Assembly (NCBI RefSeq): GCF_020329505.1
Contig: NZ_JAGKJJ010000006.1
Span: 62,001-126,000, forward strand
Length of the DNA: 64,000 nt
From: Bradyrhizobium semiaridum
GTDB lineage: Bacteria > Pseudomonadota > Alphaproteobacteria > Rhizobiales > Xanthobacteraceae
Reading direction: 5' to 3'
The notes under the pieces were generated by a model, which did not search any database, was not told the origin of the DNA, and saw only the letters and a program-made list of their open reading frames with translations. This document shows positions 47,208 to 64,000 of this stretch, piece after piece; the first letter of the stretch is position 1, and each line of letters starts with the position of its first letter. A program made the translations under genes and the position numbers.

Positions 47208-47211
47208 CTGC

Positions 47212-48078
47212 TCAGGCTCCCCGAACGCGCTGACCGAACAAACCCGACGGCTTGACCACCAGCATGACCAGGACGAGCACGAAGAGCGCGAGCGCACCCT
47301 TTGAGCCGCCGAGATAGACCGCCGAGAACGCCTCCGCCATACCGACGATGAAAGCGGCGACCGTCGCACCACCGATGCTCCCGAGACCGCCGAGAATGAC
47401 GATCAGGAACGACGTCGCCAGCACGGGATCGCCGATATGCGGCGCGAGCGACAGGGTCGGTGTGACCAGCGCGCCGGTGAGGCCGGCGAGTCCGGTCGCC
47501 AGGGCGAAGGCAGCCGGGAATAGAATCGCGGGACGCAGTCCCTGCGCCGTCGCGACCGCGCGGTCATCGGCCAGCGCACGCAACGCGCGGCCGAAATCGG
47601 TGTAATAGATCAGGCCGTACATCGACAGGATCCCGATGATGCAGACGCCTAGCACCACGAGATTCTCGATCGGCACAAAGAAGCCGTGGCCGTGAATGAC
47701 ACCGGTCAATGGAAAGGAGAAGGCCGGCGATTGTGGTCCGAACACCACTAATATTCCGCTCGACACCATCAAATAGAGGCCGAGCGTCAGCATCAGCGTC
47801 GCCAGATGATCGTCGATCACGCGATCCAGCATGAAGCGTTGGAAAAGGAATCCGAGCACCGTGGTGCCCAGCGCCGCGCAGAGCACCGCCAGCGCGTAAG
47901 GCATGCCGAGATAGGTCACTGCGGAATAGGCGAGATATCCCCCCAGAACATAGAAGCCGCCGTGCGCGAAATTGACGACTCCCAAAATGCCGAAGATCAA
48001 GGTGAAGCCGAGGGCGAGCAGCGCGTACTGCGCACCTAGGCTGATGCCGATGAGGCTGGTGGCGACAAAGCCTTGCAC
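47212..48078 (-). CDS. Branched-chain-type ABC importer permease, LivH-like
   Basis: A 288-residue membrane protein with about eight helices; LGVVNFAHGGFYVLGGYLAY is the classic LivH motif and VILGGLGSIGGATVAAF the EAA-like loop. It pairs with the LivM-like protein and lies ten bases behind the binding-protein gene. Confidence 0.93.
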   Translation of the reverse strand: MQGFVATSLIGISLGAQYALLALGFTLIFGILGVVNFAHGGFYVLGGYLAYSAVTYLGMPYALAVLCAALGTTVLGFLFQRFMLDRVIDDHLATLMLTLGLYLMVSSGILVVFGPQSPAFSFPLTGVIHGHGFFVPIENLVVLGVCIIGILSMYGLIYYTDFGRALRALADDRAVATAQGLRPAILFPAAFALATGLAGLTGALVTPTLSLAPHIGDPVLATSFLIVILGGLGSIGGATVAAFIVGMAEAFSAVYLGGSKGALALFVLVLVMLVVKPSGLFGQRVRGA

Positions 48079-48088
48079 GGACTATCCG

Positions 48089-49276
48089 CTACTTGCCGCC
48101 GGCCGCTTCGACCCTGATGGTCGGTTGCAGCTTGCCTTTCTCCACAAGTCCGACGCCAAACGGGAAGGACAGTTCCTGGTTAATGCCGAAGAAATCCTGC
48201 CCTATCCAATGACCGGGACCGATGTTGGGATCCTCGACCGGCAGGGATCGCAGGGCCTCGGCAACCTTGGCCGTGTCCGAGATGGTGCCGGCCTTGGCGA
48301 TCGCCTTGGTTACCATGCGGGCGGCGGAGACCCACTGGAAGAACAGATTGTTTTCCGGCCGTTCGGCGCCGAGCAGTTTCTTGTACTCGTCGGCAATCAG
48401 TTGCACCTTCTCGTCGATGAGGACCGGCTCGTACCAATAGAAGTCCTTGAGCACCTCATCGCCACCGGCGACACGGGAGATTTCGCTGTATCCTGGACCA
48501 CCGAGGCGTCCGATCGGTCCCTCGAAGCCGGCCTGGCGCAGTTGCTTCACGATGATGCCGGCGTCGCCAGGGGGCGACGAAGCGAGATCGACGGCGTCAG
48601 GCTTCGCATTCATGATCCGGGTCACGATCGGCGCGAAATTGGTGGTGCCGCGCTGATAGTATTCCTCTGTGGCGGTGATGCCGGTTCTCTTGTAGGCGTC
48701 GGCATCGACGCTCGCGATATCCGTGCCGCCCTGGTCGTTCGGCGCGACCAGCACCACGCTCTTCAGGCCGAACTTCTGCTTGGCGATCTTGATGATCGGT
48801 TCGGCCCAGCCCGAAGGACCCGGCCCCATGTGAAAGATCAGCGGCAACTGCGGCGATAGCGCATCCTTGGCGTAGCCGTTGCCCATCACCAGCATCGAAT
48901 TGCGCTTGGCTATCGGCTTCACGCCCGTGAGTTCGGGCGAGCCGATCGGGCCGATGATGAACTTGACGCCCTGTCCCGCCAGCGTGTTGGCCGCGGCCGC
49001 AGCGCCTTCGGCCGTGTACTTGCTGTCGATGGCAACGACGTTGACCTTGCATGGCGCCCCGTCGACCTTGATCAAGCCATCCCGGTTGGCCTCCGCGGCG
49101 ACGAGTTCGACCGCGCCGCGCAGCGCGAGGCCCCATTGCGCAGCGGGACCCGACAGAACGCCGACGACGCCGAGGGTCAATTCCTGACCCGCCGCCATCA
49201 CCGAAACATTGGAGCTGGCAAGCGCAGCGCCGACGGCGATGCCGGACAACAGCAGATCTCTCCGCGTAGTGCTCAT
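48089..49276 (-). CDS. Branched-chain-type ABC substrate-binding protein, LivK-like
   Basis: A 395-residue periplasmic protein. The N-terminus STTRRDLLLSGIAVGAALAS has a twin-arginine look (RRDLLL), followed by LTLGVVGVLSGPAAQWGLA, the start of the type I binding-protein fold used by amide, urea and carboxylate receptors. The start at 49276 is preceded by GGGGGGAG. It is the first gene of the 14-gene operon and so fixes the import specificity of the pathway. Its upstream region carries LacI-type operators. Confidence 0.93.
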   Translation of the reverse strand: MSTTRRDLLLSGIAVGAALASSNVSVMAAGQELTLGVVGVLSGPAAQWGLALRGAVELVAAEANRDGLIKVDGAPCKVNVVAIDSKYTAEGAAAAANTLAGQGVKFIIGPIGSPELTGVKPIAKRNSMLVMGNGYAKDALSPQLPLIFHMGPGPSGWAEPIIKIAKQKFGLKSVVLVAPNDQGGTDIASVDADAYKRTGITATEEYYQRGTTNFAPIVTRIMNAKPDAVDLASSPPGDAGIIVKQLRQAGFEGPIGRLGGPGYSEISRVAGGDEVLKDFYWYEPVLIDEKVQLIADEYKKLLGAERPENNLFFQWVSAARMVTKAIAKAGTISDTAKVAEALRSLPVEDPNIGPGHWIGQDFFGINQELSFPFGVGLVEKGKLQPTIRVEAAGGK

Positions 49277-49407
49277 CACTCCCCCCGTAATTTGTTGCGG
49301 CTCATGCGCCGTCCACTTGTTGCGTGGAAACCCGAAGCGTCCCGCTCCAGGGCCGCGCGTGTTCGCTCGGCGTCGGGACGTTAGGCGCGCCGAGCCCGGG
49401 CTGTCAA

Positions 49408-49419
49408 TGAAACGTTTCA
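49408..49419. promoter_or_regulatory. LacI-type operator, perfect palindrome
   Basis: TGAAACGTTTCA, part of a 14-bp perfect palindrome with flanking A and T (49407-49420), with the central CG expected for LacI-family sites. It lies 131 bases upstream of the LivK-like gene start in the 378-base region between the two divergent operons. This gap contains no gene. Confidence 0.7.
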
Positions 49420-49565
49420 TCAAAAATAGGGCGGATCAGCTATGCTAAAAGCGGACCGCCGCTCCAAACGCACCAAAAACATCAACAATAATGGATGTTT
49501 ATACCAAAAAATCGGCAATATGCCAGAAGTCCAAACGACTCCCTTCTACCTATCATTCGAACCGA

Positions 49566-49577
49566 TGAAACGTTCCA
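49566..49577. promoter_or_regulatory. LacI-type operator, one mismatch
   Basis: TGAAACGTTCCA, eleven of twelve positions identical to the site at 49408. It lies 78 bases upstream of the TRAP receptor gene. The two sites are about 158 bases apart centre to centre, compatible with repression of both directions and possibly DNA looping. Confidence 0.65.
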
Positions 49578-49654
49578 CTTGAATCGACCTGGCCTGCCCG
49601 GTAGCTTGCGTGGCCCGTCGCGGACAGAAGACGACGGCAAAGGGGAGAAACTCG

Positions 49655-50677
49655 ATGATGCGAGGCGCCGTGACGGCCGTGCTTGCCGTGCTTGCGATTC
49701 AGTTGAGCCAGGGAGCGCTAGCAGGTGAACCTCTGTTCAAGCTGCGGGCTTCGGTGGACACGTCGGCGACACACGGACGGACATTGTCTGCCGCCGACTA
49801 CCTGAAGAAGCTGCAGGAAAAATCCGGCGGGCGCATTACGACCGAGCTGTTCCACAGCGGCCAGTTGTTTCGCGACCGCGACGTGGTGAAGGCGCTGCGT
49901 CAGGGTGCCGTCGAAATGGCGATCCCCGGCACCTGGGTGCTGACCGGCTTCGTCCCCGATGCAGACGTCTTCCAACTGCCGGCATTCTTCGGACAGCCCT
50001 ATCCGGTGGTCTACGCTGCTGCCGACGGCAAGATCGGCGAGATCATCAACAAGGAACTCGAGAGCAAGCTCAATGTCAAATTGCTCGGCCGCTGGCTGCA
50101 GCTCGGATATCAAAACACCTACAGCACCAACAAGCCGATCCGCGACTTTGCCGATCAGGCCGGCATGAAGATCCGCAACTCCGGCGGAGCGGGACAGTCG
50201 GCGCGCGCCAAATTCTTCGGCGCGTCACCAAACGTAACGGCATGGCCGGACGTTCCCCTGGCGCTGTCGCAAGGCTCGTTCGACGGGCTGAGCTCGACCG
50301 ATGAAAGCCTTGCCAGCGCAAAGCTCTGGGAATCCGGCGTGAAGTATGGCTTTGCGGATCGCGAATTCGTCGGGTTCTACGTGCCGATGATCAGCGAGAG
50401 CTTCTACAAGAAGCTGCCGCCGGATCTCCAGAAGCTGGTCATCGACCTCTGGCAGGAGAACATCCAGGCCTACCGCAAGAGCATGGAAGAGGCTCAGACC
50501 GAGGCACGCCAAACTCTGGAGAAGAACGGCATCGTGTTCGTTTCGCCGTCCGAGAGCGCGCTCGCTGAGGTCCGCGCCAAGATGCTGCCTTTGCAGGACG
50601 GCATCGCGAAGGAGTTGCGGATTTCGCCCGCCTTGCTGCAGCAGGTGCAGGCGGATGTAACGACCATCGGCCATTGA
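49655..50677 (+). CDS. TRAP transporter substrate-binding protein, DctP-like
   Basis: A 340-residue periplasmic receptor: signal peptide MMRGAVTAVLAVLAIQLSQG, then LQEKSGGRITTELFHSGQLF, LKLRNSGG-type MKIRNSGGAG and the long C-terminal helix QEARQTLEKNGI-like segment. The conserved arginine that binds the carboxylate in TRAP receptors is in the KIRNSG motif. The start at 49655 has GGGGAG seven bases upstream; the ATG at 49658 is equally near. It feeds the DctQM membrane pair. Confidence 0.92.
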   Translation: MMRGAVTAVLAVLAIQLSQGALAGEPLFKLRASVDTSATHGRTLSAADYLKKLQEKSGGRITTELFHSGQLFRDRDVVKALRQGAVEMAIPGTWVLTGFVPDADVFQLPAFFGQPYPVVYAAADGKIGEIINKELESKLNVKLLGRWLQLGYQNTYSTNKPIRDFADQAGMKIRNSGGAGQSARAKFFGASPNVTAWPDVPLALSQGSFDGLSSTDESLASAKLWESGVKYGFADREFVGFYVPMISESFYKKLPPDLQKLVIDLWQENIQAYRKSMEEAQTEARQTLEKNGIVFVSPSESALAEVRAKMLPLQDGIAKELRISPALLQQVQADVTTIGH

Positions 50678-50686
50678 TTGCCTCCC

Positions 50687-51190
50687 ATGATGAAGCTCTG
50701 GAACAGGCTTGAACTCCTGTTGATAGGAGTTCTTGGTGCCGCCGCGCTGACGGTCGGGACCGCTCAGGTCATCGGCCGCTACGTGAACAAGAACTTCGCT
50801 TTCATCAATGGCGAGGAGGTAGTGGTCTATCTGACGGTTTGGGCGGTGTTTCTGGCGTCCAGCCAGTTGGTCCGGACCGACGGACATGTCAGGCCCGACG
50901 TCGTCCTGCGACTGTTGCCGCCGCAGGGGCAAAGATGGGTCGAGGCATTCAACTGCTGTGTCGCGATCTTGTTTTGTAGCGGCCTCGCCTATTGCGGCTT
51001 CCAAGTTGCCGACGTCGCCCGCAGTCTCGACGAGCGCAGCATCACGGGCCTCGAATTCCCGATGTGGATCTACTACTCGGCCATCCTGATCGGCGCCGTG
51101 CTGATGCTGTTGCGCTACGTCATCAAGCTTTATTTGCTCGTCTTCCGCTTCGATCCCGCCACCATGGTCATCGCCGTTCACGATCACTGA
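50687..51190 (+). CDS. TRAP transporter small permease, DctQ-like
   Basis: A 167-residue membrane protein with four hydrophobic helices (LLLIGVLGAAALTVGTAQV, VVYLTVWAVFLAS, FNCCVAILFCSGLAYCGF and IYYSAILIGAVLMLL) and the GEEVVVYL segment typical of DctQ. The start is 50687 or 50690, about ten bases behind the receptor stop and probably coupled to it. Confidence 0.9.
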   Translation: MMKLWNRLELLLIGVLGAAALTVGTAQVIGRYVNKNFAFINGEEVVVYLTVWAVFLASSQLVRTDGHVRPDVVLRLLPPQGQRWVEAFNCCVAILFCSGLAYCGFQVADVARSLDERSITGLEFPMWIYYSAILIGAVLMLLRYVIKLYLLVFRFDPATMVIAVHDH

Positions 51191-51299
51191 GCGTCGACGA
51201 CGTCAGCCGTCTTGATGACCGAAATCTGCCATCGGCAAACTGACCGTCGTGGTCCCGCATCGGGACGCTTCAGGTCGAGCAACCAACGAGACCGACGCG

Positions 51300-52583
51300 A
51301 TGTGGACGATGCTTTTCCTGCTGATGTTCTTCGGGCTGCTCTGCGCTGGGACGCCGATCTTTCTGGTGTTGGGCCTCTGCGCGGCAGTCCTGTTCGGCTT
51401 CAGCGACCAGCCTCTGGTAGCGATCGCGCAGAAGATCGCCGATGAAATGAATTCCAGTACGCTAATGGCCTTACCACTGTTCGTGATGGCCGCCGCCTTC
51501 ATGCGGCGCGGCGGTGTCGCCAAGGCGCTGGTCGACGTCGCGATCGCGTGGTTTGGACGATTGCGAGGTTCGCTTGGTCTCGTCACGGTCGTCGCCTGCA
51601 CCCTGTTCGCGGCGATCTGCGGCTCTTCAGTTGCGACTGCGCTCGCCATGGGCACCATTCTGGTGCCGGCGATGATCGAACGCGGCTATCCCCGTCATTT
51701 CGCGCTCGGCGTGGTCGGCGCCTCCGGCACGATCGGCATCGTTATTCCGCCCAGCCTGTCGCTGATCCTCTACGGACTGATCGCGGAGCAATCGGTGCCA
51801 AGGTTGTTCCTGGCCGGTATTCTGCCCGGGCTGCTGCAGGCAGCGATGTTCTTCGGCTGGGTATTCTACTACTCGCACAACTCCGAGTTGCCGCGCGAGC
51901 CGGCCGTGCCGCGGACCGCACTGTTGCGGATGAGCCTCAATGCTCTGCCCGCACTTTGTGTACCCTTTATCGTGATGGTCGGAATCTACGGCGGCCTGAC
52001 GACCGTCACCGAAGCAGCCGCGGTCTCGGCAACGGTGGCGCTTCTCGTCAGCCTGTTCTTCTATCGCGGCTTTCAGGTCCGCCAGACGATCGAGGTGATC
52101 GCCGAGGCGATCAAGAGCGCCGCGACGATCATGATCATCGTCGCGACCGCCTTGGCATTCGGCCATTGGATGACGGATTCGGGCATCCCGGCTTCACTTG
52201 TAAAGTTCACACTCGACCACCAGCTTCAGCCGTGGCAATTCTTGCTCGCGATCAACGTGCTGCTGCTCCTGCTCGGATGCTTTCTCGAGGTCGCCGCCAC
52301 GCTGCTGGTGGTGATGCCGATCCTTGCGCCCGCGCTGAAACCGCTCGGAATCGATCCCGTCCATTTCGCGATCGTGTTCACCCACAACATGGAGATCGCG
52401 CTGGTTCATCCCCCCGTCGGATTGAACCTTTACGTGCTTGCAACGATTTCGACGGCGCCGGTCACCGAAGTGGTGCGCGGCGTCCTGCCGTTCCTGATCC
52501 TGCTGCTACTGTGCCTTGCGATCATCACTTATGTCCCGCAGCTTTCGCTGTGGCTGCCCAATCTGGTCTATGGCGCGGGCTAG
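51300..52583 (+). CDS. TRAP transporter large permease, DctM-like
   Basis: A 427-residue membrane protein with about twelve helices and the DctM hallmarks LMALPLFVMAAAFMRRGGVA, ICGSSVATALAMGTILVPAM and GIVIPPSLSLILYGLIAEQS. With DctQ it performs sodium-coupled uptake of the bound carboxylate. The start at 51300 is chosen at the first hydrophobic helix; no strong ribosome site is visible. Presence of a TRAP and a Liv-type importer around the same operators suggests import of two pathway compounds. Confidence 0.92.
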   Translation: MWTMLFLLMFFGLLCAGTPIFLVLGLCAAVLFGFSDQPLVAIAQKIADEMNSSTLMALPLFVMAAAFMRRGGVAKALVDVAIAWFGRLRGSLGLVTVVACTLFAAICGSSVATALAMGTILVPAMIERGYPRHFALGVVGASGTIGIVIPPSLSLILYGLIAEQSVPRLFLAGILPGLLQAAMFFGWVFYYSHNSELPREPAVPRTALLRMSLNALPALCVPFIVMVGIYGGLTTVTEAAAVSATVALLVSLFFYRGFQVRQTIEVIAEAIKSAATIMIIVATALAFGHWMTDSGIPASLVKFTLDHQLQPWQFLLAINVLLLLLGCFLEVAATLLVVMPILAPALKPLGIDPVHFAIVFTHNMEIALVHPPVGLNLYVLATISTAPVTEVVRGVLPFLILLLLCLAIITYVPQLSLWLPNLVYGAG

Positions 52584-52614: not shown

Positions 52615-54140
52615 ATGTCATCGAGATCAATCCATTGGGCCGGCGAATTCTCCGCACTCGCGCTCCGCTACGGCGACAGGCCGGCCGTGGTCGACGCCGC
52701 CGGCACGAAGTCCTATGCGGAATTGTTCGCCAAAGCTGCCGGCATTGCGGATGCCTTGATGCAGGCCGGGATCGGTCCGACAGATGCCGTGGCGACTTTG
52801 TTCCGCAACAGCGCCGACGCTGTTGCGGCCACGTTCGGCGTCATGCTGGCGGGCGCGGTCGAAGTACCGATCAACCCTGCGCTGAGCAGCGACGAACGCG
52901 CTTACTGCCTCGCGGTAGCCAACGTTCGCCTGTTAGTCACCAGCGCGGCCTTCGCGACCGAAACCCCTGCCGGCGGTCCTGACCTCGTGGAGGTCGAAAG
53001 CGTCGAGCAGACCGTGTTGGATCCGGCCGGCTTTCCGCGGGTCGACGGCGGCGCGCCGGCGCGTATCGTCTTCACCTCCGGCACTACCGGACGCCCGAAA
53101 GGTGCGGTTCACAGCCAGATTGGCCGCTGGACGGCCAACATATTGCTGCGCGCAAACCTGCCGTTCCGCCCGACTGCCGGCAGCAATGTCCTGCTGATGA
53201 CGCCATTCTCCCACGGCTCTTCTTTGATGACGCATGCCTATCTTTCGTCAGGTGCGGCCGTGACCCTGCTCGACGGCGTCGACCCACCGCGCGTGCTTGA
53301 TATCCTCGCGCGCGGCACATGCGATGCCATGTTTGCGCCGCCGACCGTGCTGGCAAAGATCGTGGCTGCCGCGGGCACGCGCCAGTTCTCGTCACTGCGC
53401 ACGATCTTCTGCGGCACGGCGGTGCTGAAGCCCACGCTCTACGCGCGCGTCAGGGAGATGTTCGGCCCCGTGGTGCGGGTCACCTACGGCAAGAGCGAGG
53501 TGTTCAATCCGATCACGGTGCTCGATGCCGAAGAGACCGAGGCCTGGTATGCATCCGGAGGCGACGATGCCTGCGTCGGCTGGCCCGCTCCTGGTGTTGA
53601 GATCGTCATCCGCGGCGAGGACGGCCGGCCGCGGCGGGCAACGACGGCGAGGTTCTGATTCATGCACAACACCTGATGACCGGGTATCGCACCGCCGACG
53701 GCTTCAGCGCGCTCGCGCCGAATGAATTCCATGAAACCGGCGATCTCGGCTACATTGATGCCGGAGGGCGGCTGCACCTCACCGGCCGTAGCGCCGACGT
53801 CATCAAGTCCGGCGGCTACAAGGTGGCGCCGGAAGAGGTCGAGCGGTTGCTCGCGCCAGCGCTGCAGCCATCGGAGGTCGCAGTCGTCGGCATTCCATCA
53901 GATTATTGGGGCGAGGTCATTCTGGCCGCGATCGAGAATCCCGCACCAGGCTGGGAGGAGCGCGTCAATCGCGTGGTATCGAGCATGACCGACTACAAGC
54001 GCCCGCGCCTGCTGATTGCTCTCGACGAATTGCCGCGCAACGGAATCGGCAAGATCCTCCGCGGCACCATTCGCACCGACGTGCTGTCCCGGTTCCGCAT
54101 CACCGAAGGGCCCCGGCCGCGGCTCGAAAAGCGCTCCTAG
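52615..54140 (+). pseudogene. Acyl-CoA ligase (AMP-forming), split by a frameshift
   Basis: The first ~345 residues read as an AMP-dependent ligase (RIVFTSGTTGRPKGAVHSQI as P-loop, VRVTYGKSEVFNPITV) and then stop at 53656. From about 53630 the family sequence continues one frame over (AGNDGEVLIHAQHLMTGYRT, HETGDLGYIDAGGRLHLTGR, catalytic lysine segment ELPRNGIGKILRGTI) to 54140. A single-base indel in a GC run (GGCCGGCCGCGGCGGGC) explains it. Start at 52615 with GGAG upstream, 31 bases behind DctM. It would convert the imported acid to its CoA ester; either a recent mutation or a sequencing error. Confidence 0.88.
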
Positions 54141-54309: not shown

Positions 54310-55608
54310 TCAGCTGTTCGGGCGTGGCCACAACCCGCCCTCGGACGAGGCCTCCGATTCGTCGGGCGACAAGGGATCGGCGCCGCCGCCGGTCCGTGCA
54401 GGATCGGAAATTAGCCAACGTCGCAACTCGAGCTTGCCGATCTGGTTGCGATGGACCTCGTCGGGGCCGTCGGCTAGTCGCAGCAAGCGTGTCGTCGCGA
54501 ACGCTGCCGCGAGGAAATGGTCGTTATTGGTTCCACCTCCGCCGAAAACCTGTATCGCCCAGTCAACGATCTTCTGCGCCATGTTTGGCGCGACGACCTT
54601 GATCATCGCGATTTCCTGCCGCGCGGCCTTGTTGCCGACCGTGTCCATCATATAGGCCGCCTTGAGAGTCAGTAGCCGCGCCTGCTCGATCTTCATGCGC
54701 GCTTCGGCGAGCCGTTCGAGCGTCACCGCTTGCTCGGAGAGAGGCTTGCCGAACGCGACGCGTTTCAACGCTCGCCGGCACATTCGCTCAAGCACGCGTT
54801 CGGAGAGGCCGATCAACCGCATGCAATGATGGATGCGCCCGGGTCCAAGCCGTCCCTGCGCGATCTCGAACCCGCGTCCCTCGCCCAGCAGCATGTTGTC
54901 GGCCGGTACGCGCACATTGGCGAAGGTCACTTCGGATGCGCGATCAGGCACGCCATAGAACCCGAAAACCGGCAGCGAGCGGACGACATGCACCCCAGGC
55001 GTATCCTTCGGTACCAGGATCATCGACTGACGCTTATGGCGATCCGGATTGTCAGGATCAGTCTGCCCCATGAAGATGATAATCTTGCATCGCGGATCGG
55101 TGGCACCGGTCGTATACCACTTGCGGCCGTTGATTACGTAGTGGTCGCCGTCTCGCACGATCAAGCTGGCGACATTGGTCGCGTCGGAGGAGGCTACATC
55201 GGGCTCGGTCATCGCAAACGAGGAACGGATCTCGCCCGCAAGCAACGGCTTCAGCCAGCGCTCCTTCTGCGCCTCCGTACCATAGCGCAGGATCGTCTCC
55301 ATATTGCCGGTGTCCGGCGCACTGCAATTGAACACCTCGGGCGCGAGATGCGAACGTCCCATGATCTCGCACAGCGGTGCATATTCGAGATTCGTCAGCC
55401 CATCCTCGTGAGCGGGCAGAAACAGGTTCCACAAGCCGGCTTGTCGTGCGAGCGGCTTCAACTCCTCGACAATCGGATGCACGGCCCAGGGCCCGAGCCG
55501 CTCCGCCTCCTGATAGTATCGGCGCTCGTTCGGGTAGATGTGCTCCGTCATGAAGCGCTGGATACGCTCGGCCAGTTCCCTGCTCCGTTCGCTTTGCGTG
55601 ATATCCAT
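54310..55608 (-). CDS. Acyl-CoA dehydrogenase, long/branched-chain type
   Basis: A 432-residue flavoprotein: [40 protein letters not shown] (FAD loop), [20 protein letters not shown] and [20 protein letters not shown]. The latter places an acid near the ADGPDEVH segment where ACAD11-like enzymes have their base. Its closest relatives are the ACAD10/11-like group acting on longer or hydroxylated acyl-CoAs. It lies 12 bases behind an acyl-CoA ligase, so the pair activates and oxidises one acid. Confidence 0.92.
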
Positions 55609-55620
55609 CTGGGATTCTCC

Positions 55621-57300
55621 TTACTGGCCGCGCAGTCCGTCCCTGAGCGTGTTTCGGGTGATCTTTCCGGACTCCGTCTTGGGCAGATCGTCCAGCACGC
55701 GAATCTCGACGGGGCATTTGTATGCCGCCAATCGCTCGCGGCAAAAGCGCGAGAGCGCGGCGATATCGATGACGGCGCCGGGTTGAGCGGAGATGAACGC
55801 CACCACCGTCTCGCCGCGATAGGGATCGGCGGCGCCGACGACGGCCGCCTCACGGACGCCCGGAAAGCCGTAGATCACGTCTTCCACCTCGCGCGGCCAG
55901 ACCTTGAAGCCGGAAGCGGAGATCATGTCCTTCTTGCGATCCACGAGGTAGAACCAGCCGCTCTCGTCAAAAAAGCCGACGTCGCCGCTGTGCAACCAGC
56001 CATTGGTCAGCACCTCGTCGGTTTCCGCGGGCTTTCTCCAGTAGCCAGCCATCACGCCCGGACCGCGCACAACCACCTCACCATGCTCGCCCGGCCCGAG
56101 TGGGCGGCGCTCGTCGTCAACGACAATCGCGTCGACGCCCGGCGTCGGCCTACCGATCGACAGCGCACCTGACTCGGGATCGACGGGAATTCGACCTTCG
56201 TTGGGCGCAAGATGGCTTGCTGACGTCAGTTCGGTCATTCCATAGGAACTGCGGATCGCCCGTCCAAACCGCTTCGCGAACGCATCAATGACCGAGGGAG
56301 CAATCGGCGCGCCGCCGGAATAAAGATGCACAAAGCTCTCGAAATGGCGGCTGGTCGCCTCCGCCTGGTTCATCAGCGCGATGAACGCGGTGATGGCCCC
56401 GACAATGAATGTCGGCCGCCATTCAAGGAAGGCATCGAGCGCCACCCGCGGCTGAAAACGATAGGTCAGCACCATCGCGGCATGTGCGGCGAAGGCCGCA
56501 ACCATCTGGATCTCGAAGCCGGTGATATGGAACAGGGGCGCGACGCCGAAGATCCGCGACGCGCCGTTCAGCTCGAAATGATCACGGCAGATCAGCGCCG
56601 TCGCCACCAGATTGCGATGCGTGAGCATCGCGCCCTTGGGAACGCCCGTGGTTCCCGACGTGTAGAGCAGCAGACCAATGTCGTCGGAGGCCAGAACCGG
56701 CGGCGGAGGGGCCGGAGCATCCCCGGCAAGGATCGTGTGCAGCGCATGAGCCTGCGGCGCCTGGCCCGCCTTGGGCAGCACGCGGCCATCGTTTCGCGTC
56801 TGGAATTCACGGGCGGCGGTCCAGAGCAGCAGTTCGGGATCGACCAAGCTGGCCGCCGGGACGACATTGTCCCATTGATCATCGTGACAAATGACCGCCT
56901 TGGGTTCGCAGTCCTTGAACAGCTTCTGAAGCTCCAGCGTCCGGTACATCGGGTTGAGGCTGACGACGATGGCCCCGACCTTCCAGGCCGCCACGCTGGC
57001 GATGACGAATTGCGGCACATTCTGAAGAATGACGGCAACCCGGTCACCCCGCCCAACTCCCTTGCGCGCAAACGCGCCGGCGAGCCGGTCGCTGTACCGG
57101 TCAATATCGCCATAGTCTTGAGTCGCATCGAAATAGAATAGTGCCGGCGCCTCGCGCGGCGCGGCACGAAACAGATCGAGCGCCGTCAGCCTCATGTGAT
57201 TGGGAGGAACGACAGGCATAGCCCCGAGCTGTGCCCGCAGCCGGCCTGCGGCTTCCTCATAGGCGCGGGCGCGCGAGGCGGAATCGGAATCGGCAATCAT
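55621..57300 (-). CDS. Long-chain acyl-CoA ligase (AMP-forming)
   Basis: A 559-residue ANL-superfamily ligase: P-loop LLLYTSGTTGVPKGAMLTHR, IRSSYGMTELTSASHLAPNE (adenine site), GWLHSGDVGFFDESGWFYLV, and the C-terminal catalytic lysine in LPKTESGKITRNTLRDGLRG. It makes acyl-CoA from a fatty or aromatic acid, ATP and CoA in the cytoplasm. It lies between the GntR regulator and the acyl-CoA dehydrogenase on the same strand. No signal peptide. Confidence 0.93.
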   Translation of the reverse strand: MIADSDSASRARAYEEAAGRLRAQLGAMPVVPPNHMRLTALDLFRAAPREAPALFYFDATQDYGDIDRYSDRLAGAFARKGVGRGDRVAVILQNVPQFVIASVAAWKVGAIVVSLNPMYRTLELQKLFKDCEPKAVICHDDQWDNVVPAASLVDPELLLWTAAREFQTRNDGRVLPKAGQAPQAHALHTILAGDAPAPPPPVLASDDIGLLLYTSGTTGVPKGAMLTHRNLVATALICRDHFELNGASRIFGVAPLFHITGFEIQMVAAFAAHAAMVLTYRFQPRVALDAFLEWRPTFIVGAITAFIALMNQAEATSRHFESFVHLYSGGAPIAPSVIDAFAKRFGRAIRSSYGMTELTSASHLAPNEGRIPVDPESGALSIGRPTPGVDAIVVDDERRPLGPGEHGEVVVRGPGVMAGYWRKPAETDEVLTNGWLHSGDVGFFDESGWFYLVDRKKDMISASGFKVWPREVEDVIYGFPGVREAAVVGAADPYRGETVVAFISAQPGAVIDIAALSRFCRERLAAYKCPVEIRVLDDLPKTESGKITRNTLRDGLRGQ

Positions 57301-57417: not shown

Positions 57418-58209
57418 CTAGTCATTGGACCTCTTTCCTCGGTAGACCGAGCCGAGACGCACGTTCGGCGACACGGCGCGGTTCGCAAGGGGCGCTTGAG
57501 CCATCCCGCTCTCCTTCGCCTGAATGACAACGCGGGTGCGCCGGATGTGGAGGCGCACCAGCACCTGCGCGGCGTCGACGTCGCGCGCCCGGATCGCATC
57601 CATGATCAGGACGTGCTGGGGATCGGAGAACGGAAACCCGTCCTTGGCATAGGTTTCGCTGACGAATTGCCGCCGGAAATGCTGCGTGCTGTTCCAGAAG
57701 CGCTCGACCATCGCCAGCAGCTGCGGCATCCGCGCGCGCGAATAGGTGCGCAGGTGAAACTCCCGATCGAGCTGGATGTATTCCTCGAGCGTCGTGACCT
57801 GCTCGAGTTCGCGCACGATGCGGTCAAGCGCCTCGATGTCCTCGTCGGTCAGGTTTGGTACGCTTTCGCCGATGGCAAGCGGCTCGACAGCCTCGCGGAT
57901 CTTGTAGATCTCGATCGACTCCTCTGAATTGACGTCGGCAATCCAGGCGCCACGGTTCGGCGCCATCACGACCAGCCCCTCGTTCTCGAGTTGCTTCAGC
58001 GCCTCGCGCACGGGAATGCGGCTCGCTCCGAAATGCGCCGCGAGAAGTTCCTGCCGGATCCGGGTGCCCGGCCGCATCTCCCCGCTCAACACCGCACTAC
58101 GGATCTCGCTTGCGATCCGCTCGCTCATCAGCCGACCGCCATCCGGATCGTCGTCATTGGCGTCGCGCGTCGCGTCGCTCCAATGGGGAGTCCGCTGATA
58201 GGCACTCAT
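57418..58209 (-). CDS. GntR-family regulator with FCD effector domain
   Basis: A 263-residue regulator: winged helix at residues ~25-95 (SERIASEIRSAVLSGEMRPG, FGASRIPVREALKQLENEGL) and a helical FCD domain (IREAVEPLAIG, DREFHLRTYSRA with the metal-binding D/H residues, DPQHVLIMDAI). It lies 15 bases behind the ABC ATPase and is probably cotranscribed with the importer and the acyl-CoA genes. FCD regulators typically respond to sugar acids or carboxylates. Confidence 0.92.
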   Translation of the reverse strand: MSAYQRTPHWSDATRDANDDDPDGGRLMSERIASEIRSAVLSGEMRPGTRIRQELLAAHFGASRIPVREALKQLENEGLVVMAPNRGAWIADVNSEESIEIYKIREAVEPLAIGESVPNLTDEDIEALDRIVRELEQVTTLEEYIQLDREFHLRTYSRARMPQLLAMVERFWNSTQHFRRQFVSETYAKDGFPFSDPQHVLIMDAIRARDVDAAQVLVRLHIRRTRVVIQAKESGMAQAPLANRAVSPNVRLGSVYRGKRSND

Positions 58210-58224: not shown

Positions 58225-59766
58225 TCAATGAATGGCCGCGTACATGATCTTGTCTTCGGTCGCATCGGCCCGCGTCATTTCCTCGACGATACGCCCGCCG
58301 CGCGCGACCAGTATCCGATCCGAGATCGCCAGGATCTCCGGCAAATAGGAAGAGATCACGACGACCGCCTTGTTCTCGCCCGCCAGCCTGCGAATTGCCT
58401 GGTGGATCTGCGGAATGGCGCTGACGTCGACGCCTCGCGTCGGCTCGTCGAAGATGACCACTGTCGGTTCCTGCGCCAGAGACTTCGCCACCACGACCTT
58501 CTGCTGATTGCCGCCGGAATATTCCACAATCTTCAGGGTTCGCTTCAGCGCCGAGATGGAGAGCGCCGAGATCCATCGATCGGCAATGCGCTTCATCTCG
58601 CGCGCGGAGTAGAAGAATCGCCTGATGCGCGGTGACGACAGGTAGCCGAGATAGATATTCTGATCGACCGTCATCGTTTCGAAGAAACCGTCGACCTTCC
58701 GATCCTCAGTAATATAGGCGATTCCGTCTCGCACCGCCTGCCGCGGCACCCGGTAGCGAATCGGCTTGTCCCGCAGATAGATCATCCCGCCGCGCAGGAA
58801 ATTGCGCTTGCGTGCGCCGCTGACGATCTGTGCGATCTCGGACCGCCCTGCCCCGACCAGTCCGAAAATGCCGACGACTTCCCCGTTGAACACGGAGAAG
58901 GACATGTTTTTCACGATGCTGCCCATCGTCACGTTCTCGACCGAAAGCACCTTCTCGCCACGCCGCGCATCGGGCTTTGGCGCATCCGGATCGGCGCCAT
59001 GGGTTGCGTACTGCGCTGCCGTTTCCTCGCGGCCAACCATCATCCGCACGAGGGAGTCACGAGTGACGTCCTTGGCGGGCACCGTGGCGACGAGCTTGCC
59101 ATCGCGGAGCACGGTGATGCGATCGGCGATGTTAAGTGCCTCTTCCAACGCGTGCGAGATGAAGATGATCCCGGCACCCTTCTCTTTCAGGGTATTGAGA
59201 AGATGAAACAGATGCTGCGTCTCTTCGGGCGTAAGCGACGCGGTCGGTTCATCGAAGATGAAGACCTGGGCGTTGTGGCGCACGGCACGTACGATCTCGA
59301 CCATCTGCCGTTTGGCCGTTCCGAGATTCTCGACCAGCACCAGCGGATCGACATTGAAGTTCATCGATTGCAGCGACTGCGTCGCCGCAATATTGATCTT
59401 GCTATAAACGGTAATCCACTTCTCCATGCCGAGTTCGAGATTCTGTGCAACAGTCATCGACGGCACCAGACTGGACTCTTGGTAGACCATCGCCACACCG
59501 CCTTCGAGCGCCTCTTTTGGTGAGGCAAACGAGACCTTGCGTCCGCCGATCAAGTAGTCGCCCGAGGTCAGGACGATTGCGCCTGCAATCGCCTTGCAGA
59601 GCGTCGACTTCCCCGCGCCATTCTCTCCCAGCAGGGCGTGGATTTCGCCCGGCCGCAGATCGAAGTTGACACCGTCGATCGCATGCAGGCCGCCATAGAC
59701 CTTACTGCCATTGACGACTTGCAGCAGCGGGGTACCCGCCTGTTGTTCCGCCGGCATGACGCTCAT
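58225..59766 (-). CDS. Sugar-type ABC importer ATPase, two ATPase domains (RbsA/MglA-like)
   Basis: A 513-residue protein with two nucleotide-binding domains. The first has Walker A LLGENGAGKSTL and Walker B VFIFDEPTASL; its signature region NLGTAKRQMVEIVRAVR is degenerate, as is usual. The second has the relaxed Walker A FGLVGAGRSEIAQI, signature YSGGNQQKVVVAKSL and Walker B VVIFDEPTRGVD. It powers the permease-propeller fusion protein encoded two genes upstream. The ATG overlaps the stop of the SMP-30-like gene (ATGA). Confidence 0.94.
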   Translation of the reverse strand: MSVMPAEQQAGTPLLQVVNGSKVYGGLHAIDGVNFDLRPGEIHALLGENGAGKSTLCKAIAGAIVLTSGDYLIGGRKVSFASPKEALEGGVAMVYQESSLVPSMTVAQNLELGMEKWITVYSKINIAATQSLQSMNFNVDPLVLVENLGTAKRQMVEIVRAVRHNAQVFIFDEPTASLTPEETQHLFHLLNTLKEKGAGIIFISHALEEALNIADRITVLRDGKLVATVPAKDVTRDSLVRMMVGREETAAQYATHGADPDAPKPDARRGEKVLSVENVTMGSIVKNMSFSVFNGEVVGIFGLVGAGRSEIAQIVSGARKRNFLRGGMIYLRDKPIRYRVPRQAVRDGIAYITEDRKVDGFFETMTVDQNIYLGYLSSPRIRRFFYSAREMKRIADRWISALSISALKRTLKIVEYSGGNQQKVVVAKSLAQEPTVVIFDEPTRGVDVSAIPQIHQAIRRLAGENKAVVVISSYLPEILAISDRILVARGGRIVEEMTRADATEDKIMYAAIH

Positions 59767-60881
59767 CCTTCCTGCGCGCCGCGACCACGCGGCAGTTCAA
59801 CCAGGCAATCGCGTCCCTTGGACACCGCCAGCACGCGAGAGCCAATCGGGCGGACGGCGGTTATGCCATGGACCCGACCATCGACTCGGCTATGCAATGT
59901 CTCCGTGGCCATGCCATTGGCATCCAGCCGCGCAACGAGGCCGTACGATCGCGGCGGTGCCCACGGCTTCTGGATGCCAAGCTTCTTGATGCGGCCGATC
60001 TGGGTCGGTTCGCGCGGATTGAGGCGACCATCCAGTGCGGGACCGATCCAAAGCTCAGATGGTACTGTCCGCATCATTTCTTCGCAGAACGCCCGTTCGC
60101 GTAGGACGAACTCGGTCAGCTGCGTGCGAAGTGCGAGGAAGGCCATCCAGGCCTCACCATCCGCCCCCCGGCCGAGACGCGCCGGGTACCCGGTATAGTT
60201 CTTGACGATCACGCGCTTGTCGCCGCCCGCCCGCGAAAAGGCGGTCAGGCGATGAGCCCAGGACTCGGCGACCCACACCTCATTGCCATCACTGGAAACG
60301 AGAACCCCAAGCGGCCACGCGAGATCATCGGCGCGCACGCTCGCCCCACCGAGCGAGGCATCACAAACGATCAGTCTGCCGGACGGGGCCCGGTTTTGCA
60401 TCAGGTCGGTGAGCCAGAGATCGGGCCGGTTGTTGCGCGAGCCGTCGGTCAGGTAGATCGCCCCGTCCGGGGCGACCGTCACCGACAAGGGACAGGCAAC
60501 CTTTTCACCGCCGACGCTCTCCAGCGTCGCAACGATCTTGCCGACTGGCGAAAGCGCCACCAACCCGACGCCGGACACGCAAGCGAGTAACCTGCCATCC
60601 GGCGTGGAGGCGAGTCCGCCGACGGGACCGTCAAGGGTCGCGAACACGGCGCGCTTGTCGAAATCGTCCCCGGTGCAGCGCAAGACAGCGTTGCCGGTCG
60701 AGACATAGAGCGCACCGTCCCGCCCGAGCGCGATGTCGTCCGGTCGCTCGATCTCCGCGCCGAGCTGGCGGGCGCCGTCGAGCCGCTGGTTCGGGGAGAA
60801 AGCGCCGTCGAGCACCGGAATGCCGTGAAGCTCCCGGTTCGGAAACAGCACGCGATCGACGATATCGCCAAGCAGAGACAT
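59763..60881 (-). CDS. Strictosidine-synthase/SMP-30-like beta-propeller protein, soluble
   Basis: A 372-residue protein without signal peptide or membrane helix. Repeated blade motifs such as RPDDIALGRDGALYVSTGN, GGLASTPDGRLLACVSG, PLSVTVAPDGAIYLTDGSRN and GVLVSSDGNEVWVAESWAHR indicate a six-bladed propeller of the SMP-30/gluconolactonase/strictosidine-synthase group. It is a distant homologue of the C-terminal half of the permease encoded just upstream. Known relatives hydrolyse lactones or organophosphates with a bound metal. It may act on the imported compound. Confidence 0.85.
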   Translation of the reverse strand: MSLLGDIVDRVLFPNRELHGIPVLDGAFSPNQRLDGARQLGAEIERPDDIALGRDGALYVSTGNAVLRCTGDDFDKRAVFATLDGPVGGLASTPDGRLLACVSGVGLVALSPVGKIVATLESVGGEKVACPLSVTVAPDGAIYLTDGSRNNRPDLWLTDLMQNRAPSGRLIVCDASLGGASVRADDLAWPLGVLVSSDGNEVWVAESWAHRLTAFSRAGGDKRVIVKNYTGYPARLGRGADGEAWMAFLALRTQLTEFVLRERAFCEEMMRTVPSELWIGPALDGRLNPREPTQIGRIKKLGIQKPWAPPRSYGLVARLDANGMATETLHSRVDGRVHGITAVRPIGSRVLAVSKGRDCLVELPRGRGAQEG

Positions 60882-60884
60882 GGC

Positions 60885-62999
60885 TCAGGCCCCTCCCCAA
60901 TAGGACTTGTGCGCCTCCCAGGTCGGATCAGCGTCCGGCAGGCGGATACGCCCGATCCGGTTGTTCTCGAGACCCCCGATATAGAGGTAGCCTTTGTGTT
61001 CGCGGACCGAGGTGATGGTCGGATGCGAAAGCCCGCCTGGGTCCCAGAGCGATTCGGTCACGACGCCGTTGTCGTCGAACTTGACCACGCAGCCGTAATT
61101 GATCCCCGGGCACAGCCATTCGTCCGGCGGGATTTGCTTGACCATGCGGGTGCGGAAAACGGGATTGCGCATCGCAAGGTCATAGACCGGCGTGCGCAGG
61201 CCGACGAAGGCGAGCCAGTATCTGCCGTCAGAGGCGCGGTTGATGTTGTCGCAATAGCCCGGAAGATTATCAATCAGGATCTCGCTGGTGCCGGCCTTCG
61301 GGCCGGCGATCCAGTAGCGGTTGATCTGGCACAGCCACGTACTCGCCCACAGTACCGACCGGCCGTCATGCGAGATGCAGATGCCATTGGGGAACGTCAG
61401 GTTCCTAAGAACAGTCTTGGTGATGCCGGTTTTCGGATCGTGGCAGATCAGCCGGCCGTTGCCGCGCCCCTCGAAGCCATCGAGCGCCCAATCGGTCAGC
61501 TCATAGCGCGTCGAGGCTTCGCTGAAATAGATCTTGCCATCGGGCGCGACGTCGAGATCGTCAGCGAGGTAGAGCCGCGAATCGTCCTTGAGGCGGGTAC
61601 GCGTGCGCGTCGTGCGGTCGGTGACCTTGAAAACTGATCGATCAGGCTTGACGCCGTACACACCCATGCCGGCGATGCAGACGAGGAGGTTCTGATCCCG
61701 ATCGAATGCCAACCCGAGCGGCCGGCCGCCGATCCGCGCGAACTCTTCGCGGACCGTGTAATCCGGCGCGAGAAAGCGAATGATCGAACCGTTGCGGTTG
61801 ACGGTGTAGAGATTGTCCTTGCGATCGAGGATGATGTCCTCGGGACCTTCGATCATGTTGAGCGCGATTGCTTCCGCGTTCTTCAGGCGATCGTTCTCCG
61901 CGAACGGCGTACCGCTGCCGCGCTCGACCGACGGCGGCGGCTCGAAATCAACCCAGCTTGGCGTGACATAGACCTTTTGCAGCACCTTGCCCTTGTTCTT
62001 GACCCACTTCACGTTGAAGCCGACCGCGAGCAGCAGGATGATGCCGATGATGGCCGTCGTCAGGTTGCCGGAAATCCCGAGCCGCACCATGCCGCTGGTG
62101 AGCATGAAAATGATCGCTGCACCCATGACGGCGCGCGCGATGGTGCCGCGGCCGCCGGCGAGGCTGATACCGCCGAGGACCACCGCGGCGAGCGCGTTGA
62201 TCTCCCAGCCGACGCCCGTGTCGGTGCCCGAGCTGCTTTGCCGCGCCGCATAAAGGATTCCCGCCAGTGCCGCGATCGCCCCTGACATCACATACGCCGA
62301 AAACAGCACGCGCTTGACGTTGACGCCGGCATGCCGCGCCGCCTTGCGGCTCGATCCGACCGCCATGATGTGGACGCCGGGCTTGACGCGGGTGAGAAAA
62401 AAGTGCGTTCCGATGGCAAGCAGGATCAACACCAGCATGTTGAAGGGAATACCGAGAACTCTGCCCGATCCGATGAAATCCCATGCGCTGGAGCCGCTGT
62501 CGATGCTTGCAAGCTCGTTCGTGAACGCCACCGTCACCTTGTTATAGGCGGCGCGAACGATAATGAGGACGACCAGCGTCGTCAGGAATGGCCGGGTCTT
62601 GCCGTAAGCAATCAGCCCGCCGTTGATGGCGCCCATCGCCGCGCCAAACAGGACGATAAGCGGGATCGTCACGGGCAACGGCAGCCCGACGATGAGATAC
62701 AAATAGAGCGCGAGGAAGTTCGACATCGCGAACACTGCGCCGACCGACAGATCGATGCCGCCGGACAGCACAGAAAATGCCATCGCGACGGCGACCATCC
62801 CCTGCTCTGCGAAATTTCGCATCAGCTCCTGAAGGCTGCCCGCCGTCAGGTACCGCGGGATCATCACCGCGAAAGCCAGGAATACCGCGATCGTGAGTGT
62901 GAATGGAATGATCGGCTCCATCCAGCGTTTCTCGAGAAGCTCGCCCAGGAACAATTGGGGCGAATGGCGGTGCCAGGCTCGTTGCAGGCTTTTCATCAA
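60885..62999 (-). CDS. Sugar-type ABC permease fused to a strictosidine-synthase-like propeller
   Basis: A 704-residue fusion. Residues ~1-330 are an RbsC-type permease (SVLSGGIDLSVGAVFAMSNF, VVLGGISLAGGRGTIARAV) with eight to ten helices. After a short linker (KVYVTPSWVDFEPPPS), residues ~370-704 form a strictosidine-synthase-like propeller (IEGPEDIILDRKDNLYTVNR, GGRPLGLAFDRDQNLLVCIA, ADDLDVAPDGKIYFSEASTR, GPKAGTSEILIDNLPGYCDN). The frame is uninterrupted across the junction. RbsC C-termini are cytoplasmic, so the propeller should face the cytosol and could process substrate as it enters (inference). Three bases separate it from the soluble paralogue downstream. Confidence 0.92.
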   Translation of the reverse strand: MMKSLQRAWHRHSPQLFLGELLEKRWMEPIIPFTLTIAVFLAFAVMIPRYLTAGSLQELMRNFAEQGMVAVAMAFSVLSGGIDLSVGAVFAMSNFLALYLYLIVGLPLPVTIPLIVLFGAAMGAINGGLIAYGKTRPFLTTLVVLIIVRAAYNKVTVAFTNELASIDSGSSAWDFIGSGRVLGIPFNMLVLILLAIGTHFFLTRVKPGVHIMAVGSSRKAARHAGVNVKRVLFSAYVMSGAIAALAGILYAARQSSSGTDTGVGWEINALAAVVLGGISLAGGRGTIARAVMGAAIIFMLTSGMVRLGISGNLTTAIIGIILLLAVGFNVKWVKNKGKVLQKVYVTPSWVDFEPPPSVERGSGTPFAENDRLKNAEAIALNMIEGPEDIILDRKDNLYTVNRNGSIIRFLAPDYTVREEFARIGGRPLGLAFDRDQNLLVCIAGMGVYGVKPDRSVFKVTDRTTRTRTRLKDDSRLYLADDLDVAPDGKIYFSEASTRYELTDWALDGFEGRGNGRLICHDPKTGITKTVLRNLTFPNGICISHDGRSVLWASTWLCQINRYWIAGPKAGTSEILIDNLPGYCDNINRASDGRYWLAFVGLRTPVYDLAMRNPVFRTRMVKQIPPDEWLCPGINYGCVVKFDDNGVVTESLWDPGGLSHPTITSVREHKGYLYIGGLENNRIGRIRLPDADPTWEAHKSYWGGA

Positions 63000-63111: not shown

Positions 63112-64000
63112 TTACTTGACGCCCTTCGGAATGCTGAAGCAGTACATCCGATCGTCCTTCGACTTCACCCAGGCGGGGGTCGTGTAATAGGCGACGTTCT
63201 TCGAGCCCGGCTTGTCGCCGCTCTGCAGAAGCGCGATCACTGCGTCGGCGATGGTCTGCCCCTGCACGTCGGCGCGATACGACAGGTTCGCGGAGAACGC
63301 GCCCTGCTCCAGCAGATCGCAATCGGCCGGCTGTCCGTCGCTGGCAACGAACACCTTCACCTTGTCGCCCATGTTGGCCGCCTTGATCGCCTGGGCTGCG
63401 CCGGCGGTTTGCGGTCCCCAGACGCTGAGGATCCCGCACAGCTTGGGGTGCTGCTGCAACACAGTGGTCGTGATATCACCGGCCTTGTTGGCATCCCAGC
63501 TTGTCGGCTGCGAAGACACGACCTTGATCGACGGATCGGTCTTGAATACTTCCATGGCGCCGTTCTTCATATCGAGCGAATAGGCCGCGGTGGCCTCCCC
63601 CTCGAGGATCGCGATCTCCCCCGAACCCTTGCCGCCGCCGCACTGGTTGATCACCTCGCGAGCGATCTTGGTGCCAAGATCCTTGGCATCGACCCCGACA
63701 TAGGCATCGCTCAGGGTATTCGACGCCATGTTGACCTGCACGACATAGATGCCGGCGTCCATCGCACGCTTGAGCTCCTTGGCGAGCAGCGTGACGTTCG
63801 GATTTTGGACAACGAGCACGTCGGGCTTTTCATTGATATAGTCGCTGACGGTCTGCAGCTGGATGTCGGACTTCATGTTGGCGTCGCGCGTGACAAGTTT
63901 GATGCCGTAATCGTCGAAACGATCTTTCATCACACGCGTCCATTCGGATTCCAGAACACCCATCCAGACCGGCGACCAGGCCACCGTCTTGCCCTTCAGC
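63112..64000 (-). CDS. Sugar-type ABC substrate-binding protein, N-terminus outside the window
   Basis: The frame is open to base 64000 (reading ...LKGKTVAWSPVWMG), so only the signal peptide and first residues are missing. At least 295 residues are visible. The type I sugar-binding fold is shown by DYINEKPDVLVVQNPNVTLL, ELKRAMDAGIYVVQVNMASN and TVLQQHPKLCGILSVWGPQT. It is the receptor for the importer encoded downstream. A GTG at 63984 could be mistaken for a start but has coding sequence before it. Confidence 0.92.
   Translation of the reverse strand, partial: LKGKTVAWSPVWMGVLESEWTRVMKDRFDDYGIKLVTRDANMKSDIQLQTVSDYINEKPDVLVVQNPNVTLLAKELKRAMDAGIYVVQVNMASNTLSDAYVGVDAKDLGTKIAREVINQCGGGKGSGEIAILEGEATAAYSLDMKNGAMEVFKTDPSIKVVSSQPTSWDANKAGDITTTVLQQHPKLCGILSVWGPQTAGAAQAIKAANMGDKVKVFVASDGQPADCDLLEQGAFSANLSYRADVQGQTIADAVIALLQSGDKPGSKNVAYYTTPAWVKSKDDRMYCFSIPKGVK

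Follow-up and report, generated by a model that had tools for sequence, protein, structure and literature searches.

A widespread fusion of an RbsC-type ABC permease with a six-bladed propeller, a candidate importer of conjugated carboxylic acids

We analyzed a stretch of 64,000 nucleotides from Bradyrhizobium semiaridum (contig NZ_JAGKJJ010000006.1, positions 62,001 to 126,000; hereafter the window, with positions numbered from its first letter). Near its right end lies a gene in which the permease of an ATP-binding cassette (ABC) importer continues into a six-bladed propeller, followed by the gene of a related but soluble propeller. Both are read from the minus strand, a detail absent from the original prediction on this DNA, which had been made from the sequence alone. 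The features of these two genes are as follows.

60885..62999, minus strand: fusion gene, RbsC-type permease plus predicted cytoplasmic six-bladed propeller, 704 codons as listed
62010..62999, minus strand: permease half, residues 1-330, with PF02653 at 61-326
61920..62009, minus strand: linker, residues 331-360
60888..61913, minus strand: propeller half, residues 363-704, with SSL_N, Str_synth and SGL
59763..60881, minus strand: soluble strictosidine-synthase-like propeller, 372 residues, starting 3 bases past the fusion stop

The fusion occupies a single open frame of 704 codons, running from 62999 to 60888 with its stop codon at 60885-60887, while stops interrupt the plus-strand frame across 60885-62999. 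The listed start is a TTG; the next codon (62996) is an ATG with GGAG ahead of it, which makes this ATG the probable translation start and a protein of 703 residues the likelier product. In Pfam, BPD_transp_2 (PF02653) covers residues 61-326 with 127.4 bits against a curated cut-off of 26.8, and the propeller half carries three further matches above curated cut-offs, namely SSL_N (365-409, 51.8 bits) and Str_synth (480-566, 77.7 bits), the strictosidine-synthase-like pair PF03088/PF20067, and SGL (393-600, 44.0 bits). When the permease half was compared with the named sugar permeases of the carbohydrate uptake transporter 2 (CUT2) family, the top NCBIfam equivalog was RbsC, at 161.3 bits against a cut-off of 398, and the fusion is therefore not assigned to any named sugar transporter. 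No solved structure matched the permease half in a phmmer search at E 0.001. The original prediction of an RbsC-type channel that runs unbroken into a six-bladed propeller was borne out by the single frame, the Pfam matches, and an AlphaFold2 model (see below). The same is true of its soluble distant homolog three bases on: the product of 59763-60881 is a propeller with 30% identity to the fusion over residues 365-634.

The same domain order, for which a search of other genomes had been proposed, turned up in the order, the genus, the phylum, on plasmids, and beyond. The same genome holds a second full-length copy of the fusion, with 58% identity to the first and likewise followed by a soluble propeller. 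At a threshold of E 1e-100, relatives were found in 35/297 genomes of the order, 37/117 genomes of the genus, and 11/398 genomes drawn from the phylum (this genome included each time), counts that take in a few partial rows. The match rows were unbroken and nearly full-length in 44 of 46 cases in the order and in 55 of 59 in the genus; among the partial rows, one copy is split within the propeller (G694), one carries a TGA (G721), and three genomes (G682, G176, and G151) have one partial piece each. From 72,556 plasmid records, 16 matched at E 1e-60, and 15 cover at least 80% of the query, Paraburkholderia and Pantoea included. A scan of named genomes matched at least 591 stretches, at least 569 of them relatives. 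The best 80 of these at least 569 are mostly from Bradyrhizobium and other Pseudomonadota, but also hold Amycolatopsis, Prauserella, Qaidamihabitans, and Thermocrispum, which we take to be actinobacteria (ranks here are our own assignments), and a Desulfobacterales metagenome-assembled genome. The fusion itself was confirmed in 97 loci (L038-L134), each with at least one fusion gene.

A frame accident or an assembly join is ruled out by the second copy in the genome together with the unbroken fusion frames across the order and the genus. The original prediction had allowed that related strains might carry two separate genes here; what the relatives carry are unbroken, near-full-length fusions. 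Across 11 genomes of the genus, every one of the 23 top matches to the permease half (at least 217.8 bits) lies within a frame of 712-846 residues, the 24th is the TGA-bearing copy (G721, 197.8 bits), and matches at 139.8 bits or below are other, unfused permeases. Because a 22-row alignment, in which identity to the window goes down to 46%, has zero columns beyond the window's 704, and because G283 and E387 lie 104 residues apart in 43/47 sequences and 102-103 apart in the remaining four, the architecture appears almost fixed and is probably of single origin. The fusion is thus real and widespread, and not a local accident. An apparent triple fusion of 1060 residues (L105) was discarded, as its join holds X from an assembly gap. 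Searching the propeller half against 289 genomes of the class gave 30 rows: 10 of fusion size (frames of 712-739 residues, 54-100% identity), 13 in frames of 358-507 residues at 34-40%, and 7 weaker ones (27-37% over part of the query), with six directly adjoining a same-genome fusion. None of the free-standing relatives in these genomes is near enough to be named an unfused ancestor.

In the AlphaFold2 model of the fusion (47 sequences; mean predicted local distance difference test score, pLDDT, 87.2; predicted template modeling score, pTM, 0.65), a helical part is followed by a beta part. The modeled propeller superposes best on TGW6 (8kg3), with a Z score of 35.2 and 2.5 A over 279 residues at 28% identity, and Foldseek likewise ranks TGW6 first. 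Strictosidine synthases follow at Z 32.7-34.7, DFPase and the RPA3624 lactonase at Z 29-30 (DFPase with 2.7-3.2 A over 277-286 residues), and Drp35 and PON1 at about 28. As modeled, the fused domain is a six-bladed propeller with the fold of the DFPase/SMP-30/PON hydrolases; the permease part of the model was barely probed by these fold searches.

The original prediction had put the propeller at the inner face of the membrane, and the charge pattern of the permease agrees. In the model, the last membrane helix extends as far as residue 344. Loop charges in the second half of the permease alternate, the mean number of lysines plus arginines being 4.2 (residues 205-227), 0.2 (255-264), 1.0 (276-286), 0.02 (307-310), and 5.0 (331-350). 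By the positive-inside rule, this predicts a cytoplasmic location for the stretch behind the last helix and hence for the propeller. Earlier in the permease, the N-terminus (5.2) and the loop 133-136 (2.0) fit the rule as well; the short loop 79-85, expected inside, has zero lysines or arginines.

A check of the metal ligands had also been proposed. According to the accessible part of the TGW6 paper, the calcium-site positions of that protein are Glu-59, Asn-167, Asn-226, and Asn-272 (PMC10958001). With the register to these residues taken from a profile alignment, and the residue offset of 28 counted by hand, the equivalent codons of the fusion are the following.

61839..61841, minus strand: E387, aligned with TGW6 Glu-59
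61560..61562, minus strand: D480, aligned with TGW6 Asn-167, D or N in the family
61386..61388, minus strand: N538, aligned with TGW6 Asn-226
61245..61250, minus strand: D584-N585, aligned with TGW6 Asp-271/Asn-272

E387, N538, D584, and N585 are invariant in two alignments (22/22 and 47/47), and position 480 is D in 47/47 of one and D or N (16 and 6) among the 22 of the other. As the two alignments share two rows, they represent 67 distinct fused propellers, and the full set (E387, D/N480, N538, D584-N585) is kept in 67/67, most rows having at least two acidic site residues. The check, made by sequence alignment, thus came out in favor of a site: the predicted calcium-site residues are conserved, and the fused propeller appears to possess the calcium-ligand residues of the DFPase/SMP-30/PON hydrolases. 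In DrSOD, the lactonase half binds calcium at a four-ligand site of the same type, as stated in the available part of its description (PMC12362111).

The soluble propeller has taken a different course. Its protein matches the Pfam families PF03088/PF20067 above the curated scores (31.3 and 35.4 bits), and its model (56 sequences; pLDDT 90.6, pTM 0.89) finds its best structural match in strictosidine synthases. One codon deserves separate mention.

60177..60179, minus strand: R235 of the soluble propeller (in GYPARLGR), aligned with TGW6 Asn-272

At the former calcium-site positions, the soluble paralogs carry threonine (45/56) or leucine (8/56), a variable residue (asparagine in 15/56), and alanine, glycine, or serine (55/56), and R235 is invariant (56/56). 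The Glu position, placed by motif alone, is D in 50/56 and E in 4/56, so that an acidic residue seems to be kept at this position only and the calcium-ligand set is otherwise gone. Because the calcium-site positions are mostly lost, one of them to an invariant arginine, the soluble homolog is probably not a second lactonase; a role in sensing or assembly is likely. With the site kept in the fused propeller and lost in the soluble one, we infer that the two propellers of one operon differ as an enzyme and a binding pseudo-enzyme would. Other invariant residues of the soluble propeller are Y232, beside R235, and a C-terminal set of W278, P281, Q294, K305, W307, P309, S312, and G314.

This contrast bears on a first alternative to hydrolysis, namely that the fused propeller is itself a regulatory or sensor domain, which, on binding the imported compound or the product made from it on the cytoplasmic side, would slow or gate transport. 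Trans-inhibition domains are known from the ATPases of ABC importers such as MetN and ModC. It is, however, on the ATPase rather than on the permease that the known regulatory domains of importers sit, and the retention of the site in all 67 fused propellers, against the loss of most of it in the soluble paralog, is what one would expect of selection for catalysis in the one and for binding in the other. A sensor would fit the position of the propeller behind the last helix on the predicted cytoplasmic side, the almost fixed linker length, and the presence of a companion propeller that lacks a complete metal site. Residues alone, moreover, are no proof of catalysis: in TGW6 a similar site is partly conserved, with one acidic residue, and no calcium was found, according to the part of the paper at hand (PMC10958001). 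We consider a purely regulatory role unlikely, yet a serious competitor to a hydrolase.

The genes that accompany the two propeller genes in the window are the following.

63112..64000, minus strand: sugar-type periplasmic binding protein (Peripla_BP_4), with its 5' end and signal-like N-terminus outside the window
58225..59766, minus strand: RbsA/AraG-type double ATP-binding cassette protein, 513 residues, overlapping the soluble gene by 4 nucleotides
57418..58209, minus strand: GntR/FCD regulator, 15 nucleotides past the ATPase gene
55621..57300, minus strand: acyl-coenzyme A (acyl-CoA) synthetase (AMP-binding)
54310..55608, minus strand: acyl-CoA dehydrogenase, 12 nucleotides past the synthetase

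The fusion thus stands beside an RbsA-type ATPase and a sugar-type binding protein, as a member of a CUT2/RbsC operon does. Across the 97 loci there are 99 fusion genes, and 85 of the 99 show the exact order permease, binding protein, fusion, soluble propeller, ATPase. Of the 14 that depart from it, nine are truncated by a contig end. In the others, the binding protein was missed by the gene caller but is annotated in the record (L050), the binding protein is doubled (L102), an assembly gap intervenes (second copy of L105), no soluble gene was called between fusion and ATPase (L104), or, in the window's own host, the plain permease is interrupted. Since the plain permease and the fusion stand together in these 85 operons, the two most likely pair up as a heterodimeric channel.

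The tightness of this arrangement is also what a second alternative would lead one to expect, in which the fused propeller serves as a docking platform at the channel, both for the soluble propeller and for downstream enzymes such as CoA ligase and dehydrogenases, with any catalysis left to the soluble protein or to neighbors. The soluble propeller gene comes directly after 95/99 fusion genes (the other four being two contig ends, the assembly gap, and L104), and, judged from candidate starts, four-base overlaps of a start-like codon with the preceding stop occur at 45/95 fusion/soluble junctions and at 79/95 soluble/ATPase junctions. The divergence of the two propellers is correlated as well (r 0.79), although that of permease and soluble propeller is yet higher (0.86), and co-divergence is expected of operon neighbors anyway. 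A scaffold, furthermore, needs no invariant central polar residues. We therefore rate docking as the sole function of the fused propeller as rather improbable, less probable than a hydrolase and also less probable than a sensor.

What might the hydrolase act on? We clustered the neighbor genes of the fusion loci and named the commonest clusters by one representative each. The commonest neighbors are short-chain dehydrogenase, acyl-CoA dehydrogenase, CoA ligase, enoyl-CoA hydratase, and CoA transferase III, along with aldehyde and alcohol dehydrogenases and GntR, LysR, and TetR regulators. Of these, acyl-CoA dehydrogenase, CoA ligase, enoyl-CoA hydratase, and CoA transferase III were counted as CoA-thioester genes in the 63/97 loci that have 8.5 kb on either side, with the window's locus (L038) and its paralog (L039) excluded. 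A CoA-thioester gene lies within 9 kb in 43/63 fusion loci and in 0/20 control loci with an unfused RbsC-type permease, drawn from nine genomes of one genus. With the loci collapsed at 75% identity, 15/24 full-context clusters have such a gene in half or more of their members (18/31 clusters when counting any member and eight genes). Short-chain dehydrogenases were dismissed as a mark of fusion loci, being present in 30/63 of these and in 9/20 controls.

Individual loci point to individual pathways. A GntR regulator, a CoA ligase, and an acyl-CoA dehydrogenase follow the transporter in the window (L038) and in L055, L056, L058, and L061; in Rhodopseudomonas (L064, L069) and Oceanibacterium (L068), the acyl-CoA dehydrogenase follows the operon and a divergent GntR gene precedes it. 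The second fusion operon of this genome (L039, 7911-17462) is followed by a salicylyl-CoA 5-hydroxylase (1358.7 bits, cut-off 1078), which also occurs at L087 (1353.3 bits). The relatives L086, L090, L095, and L097 add enoyl-CoA hydratase, L-PSP, and a flavin adenine dinucleotide (FAD) hydroxylase, giving the picture of a pathway for aromatic acids served by a fused importer of its own. A degradative 3-hydroxy-3-methylglutaryl-CoA (HMG-CoA) reductase (434 bits, cut-off 260) directly precedes the operon of Shinella HZN7; on this Shinella plasmid (L040, 8579-9904), it overlaps the operon's annotated first gene by one base. This suggests uptake of mevalonate or mevalonolactone by the L040 copy. 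As a general partner the reductase was rejected because it was found at this single locus, and mevalonolactone is for the same reason just one candidate substrate. Because different named pathway genes flank different copies, the copies probably differ in the compound that they import, the common element being a carboxylic acid that ends up as a CoA thioester. Taken together, the neighborhoods suggest that the substrates are carboxylic acids in conjugated form, such as esters or lactones, rather than sugar lactones.

A third alternative is an ordinary CUT2 transporter with a gluconolactonase-type domain, which would after all take up a sugar or sugar lactone. The binding protein and the ATPase are of the sugar type, database product names such as 'SMP-30/gluconolactonase/LRE family protein' say as much, and pentose and triose genes adjoin the Pantoea copy. 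Yet CoA-thioester genes, often close to the fusions, are absent from all 20 unfused controls, and in an NCBIfam scan covering the fusion, the soluble protein, the ATPase, and the binding protein, no listed sugar equivalog reached its cut-off for any of the four (for the ATPase, among the best 25 of 190). Among the explanations considered, we find this one the hardest to credit.

Several genes around the operon are noted in passing. On the plus strand, a CoA ligase is split in two frames (52615-54140), with AMP-binding at 52615-53658 (192.6 bits) and AMP-binding_C at 53676-54140 (33.7 bits), and may be a broken gene. Downstream of the operon, within 45421-52583, lie a branched-chain-type ABC transporter (with a BPD_transp_2 permease at 47212 and a BCA_ABC_TP_C ATPase at 45421) and a tripartite ATP-independent periplasmic (TRAP) transporter (DctP at 49610, DctM at 51249). 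Past the window (L038 15267-19557), a DeoR regulator, a PdxA-like gene, an SBD_N/NBD_C kinase-like gene, and a KdgT-type permease make up a sugar-acid-like set.

The reading that we prefer, and to which we give about an even chance, is that of an importer for carboxylic acids in conjugated form, to which a cytoplasmic propeller hydrolase is fused. Of the two roles in the original prediction, lactone opening and ligand sensing, we thus favor hydrolysis for the fused domain. The periplasmic binding protein would hand over the conjugated acid as an ester, lactone, or glycosyl ester, and the RbsA-type ATPase would drive it through a CUT2/RbsC-like channel formed by the plain and the propeller-bearing permease. 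The extended last helix would hold the fused propeller under the channel exit, where it could hydrolyze the conjugate with a calcium-bound water; a CoA ligase or CoA transferase would then activate the released acid, which would be oxidized. The soluble paralog, lacking a full metal site and with its invariant arginine in a former ligand position, would probably bind a carboxylate (product or intermediate) or the fused propeller, and act as a sensor, chaperone, or gate. If so, a hydrolase within the channel subunit would cut the conjugate on entry.

A number of points weigh against this importer-hydrolase. The activity, metal, and ligand of the fused propeller are predictions and each substrate is a candidate; calcium-site residues are no guarantee of a metal, given that TGW6, the closest solved fold, has no calcium bound; and the position of the propeller beneath the channel exit is a model-based placement that, at a pTM of 0.65, is not established. 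The association with CoA-thioester genes is uneven: 9/24 full-context clusters have such a gene in under half of their members, sugar or other genes adjoin the loci of Pantoea and some of those of Shinella, and the 13 Bradyrhizobium loci have enoyl-CoA hydratase in 9/13, with ligase, dehydrogenase, and CoA transferase in 1/13 each. In the comparison of 43/63 with 0/20, the controls come from one genus, some being probably orthologous to each other, and the family profiles, built from fusion neighbors, lean towards the fusion set. The window's own locus falls outside the 63, since the fetched stretch is too short on one side. Lastly, the host's plain permease, ~500 bases past the window's right end, lacks ~180 bp and changes frame (L038 14000-15000, contig C66 at ~126.5 kb) when compared with five distinct relatives (L055, L056, L058, L190, and L191; L192 has the L058 sequence). 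The sequence there contains no N, and the gap is either a real deletion or an assembly error. With its partner permease interrupted, the window's copy may not work, and may be inactive if the deletion is real; in the second copy (L039), all five operon genes are present and open.

Going one step further, we tentatively raise a less probable proposal, that these operons represent an undescribed, widespread class of ABC importers, with vectorial hydrolysis of an ester, lactone, or acyl-sugar at the cytoplasmic mouth, so that the free acid would need no import as such, and an Arg-bearing companion that would read the carboxylate and gate transport or inform the regulator. Whatever its exact function, the fusion belongs to a conserved five-gene module and is not a one-genome curiosity. 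If the importer-hydrolase is true, the module is a case of transport coupled to hydrolysis, with a catalytic-type and a metal-site-less propeller paired in one operon. It also flags carboxylic-acid catabolic operons (including those beside salicylyl-CoA 5-hydroxylase or degradative HMG-CoA reductase) whose uptake systems carry sugar-transporter annotation. Databases label the fusion by one half, as a gluconolactonase-family protein or as a ribose permease. To our knowledge, covalent unions of enzyme and importer are rare among ABC systems. The component families are already known; their union was not found described in the open-licence literature, work on related pathways included, searched by title and start of abstract with the terms used, and the accessible portion of PMC9007349 makes no mention of the architecture.

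Compared with known systems, the operon shares with RbsABC/AraFGH-type (CUT2) importers the PF02653 permease, the double-cassette ATPase, and the Peripla_BP_4 binding protein. It differs in having two unlike permeases, one with a C-terminal propeller, and an extra soluble propeller gene, as well as in its neighbors, which are often CoA-thioester instead of sugar genes. The fused propeller has its six-bladed fold in common with DFPase, RPA3624, Drp35, and PON1 (Z 28-30), none of whose listed entries contains a permease; its ligand positions are as in DFPase and DrSOD, a correspondence taken from the available part of the TGW6 paper (PMC10958001). With plant strictosidine synthases it shares the fold and PF03088/PF20067, but in the alignment these have Gly at the N538 and D584 positions, whereas the fused propeller retains the hydrolase residues. 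The best fold match, the rice indole-3-acetic acid (IAA)-glucose ester hydrolase TGW6, has the same four site positions; it is a free-standing plant protein with one acidic site residue (PMC10958001, in the part available), while the fused family has E387 and mostly D480. A precedent for such a union is DrSOD, which its description, as far as accessible, presents as a natural fusion of a superoxide dismutase with a calcium lactonase propeller (PMC12362111); there the partner is a superoxide dismutase, and here it is a transporter.

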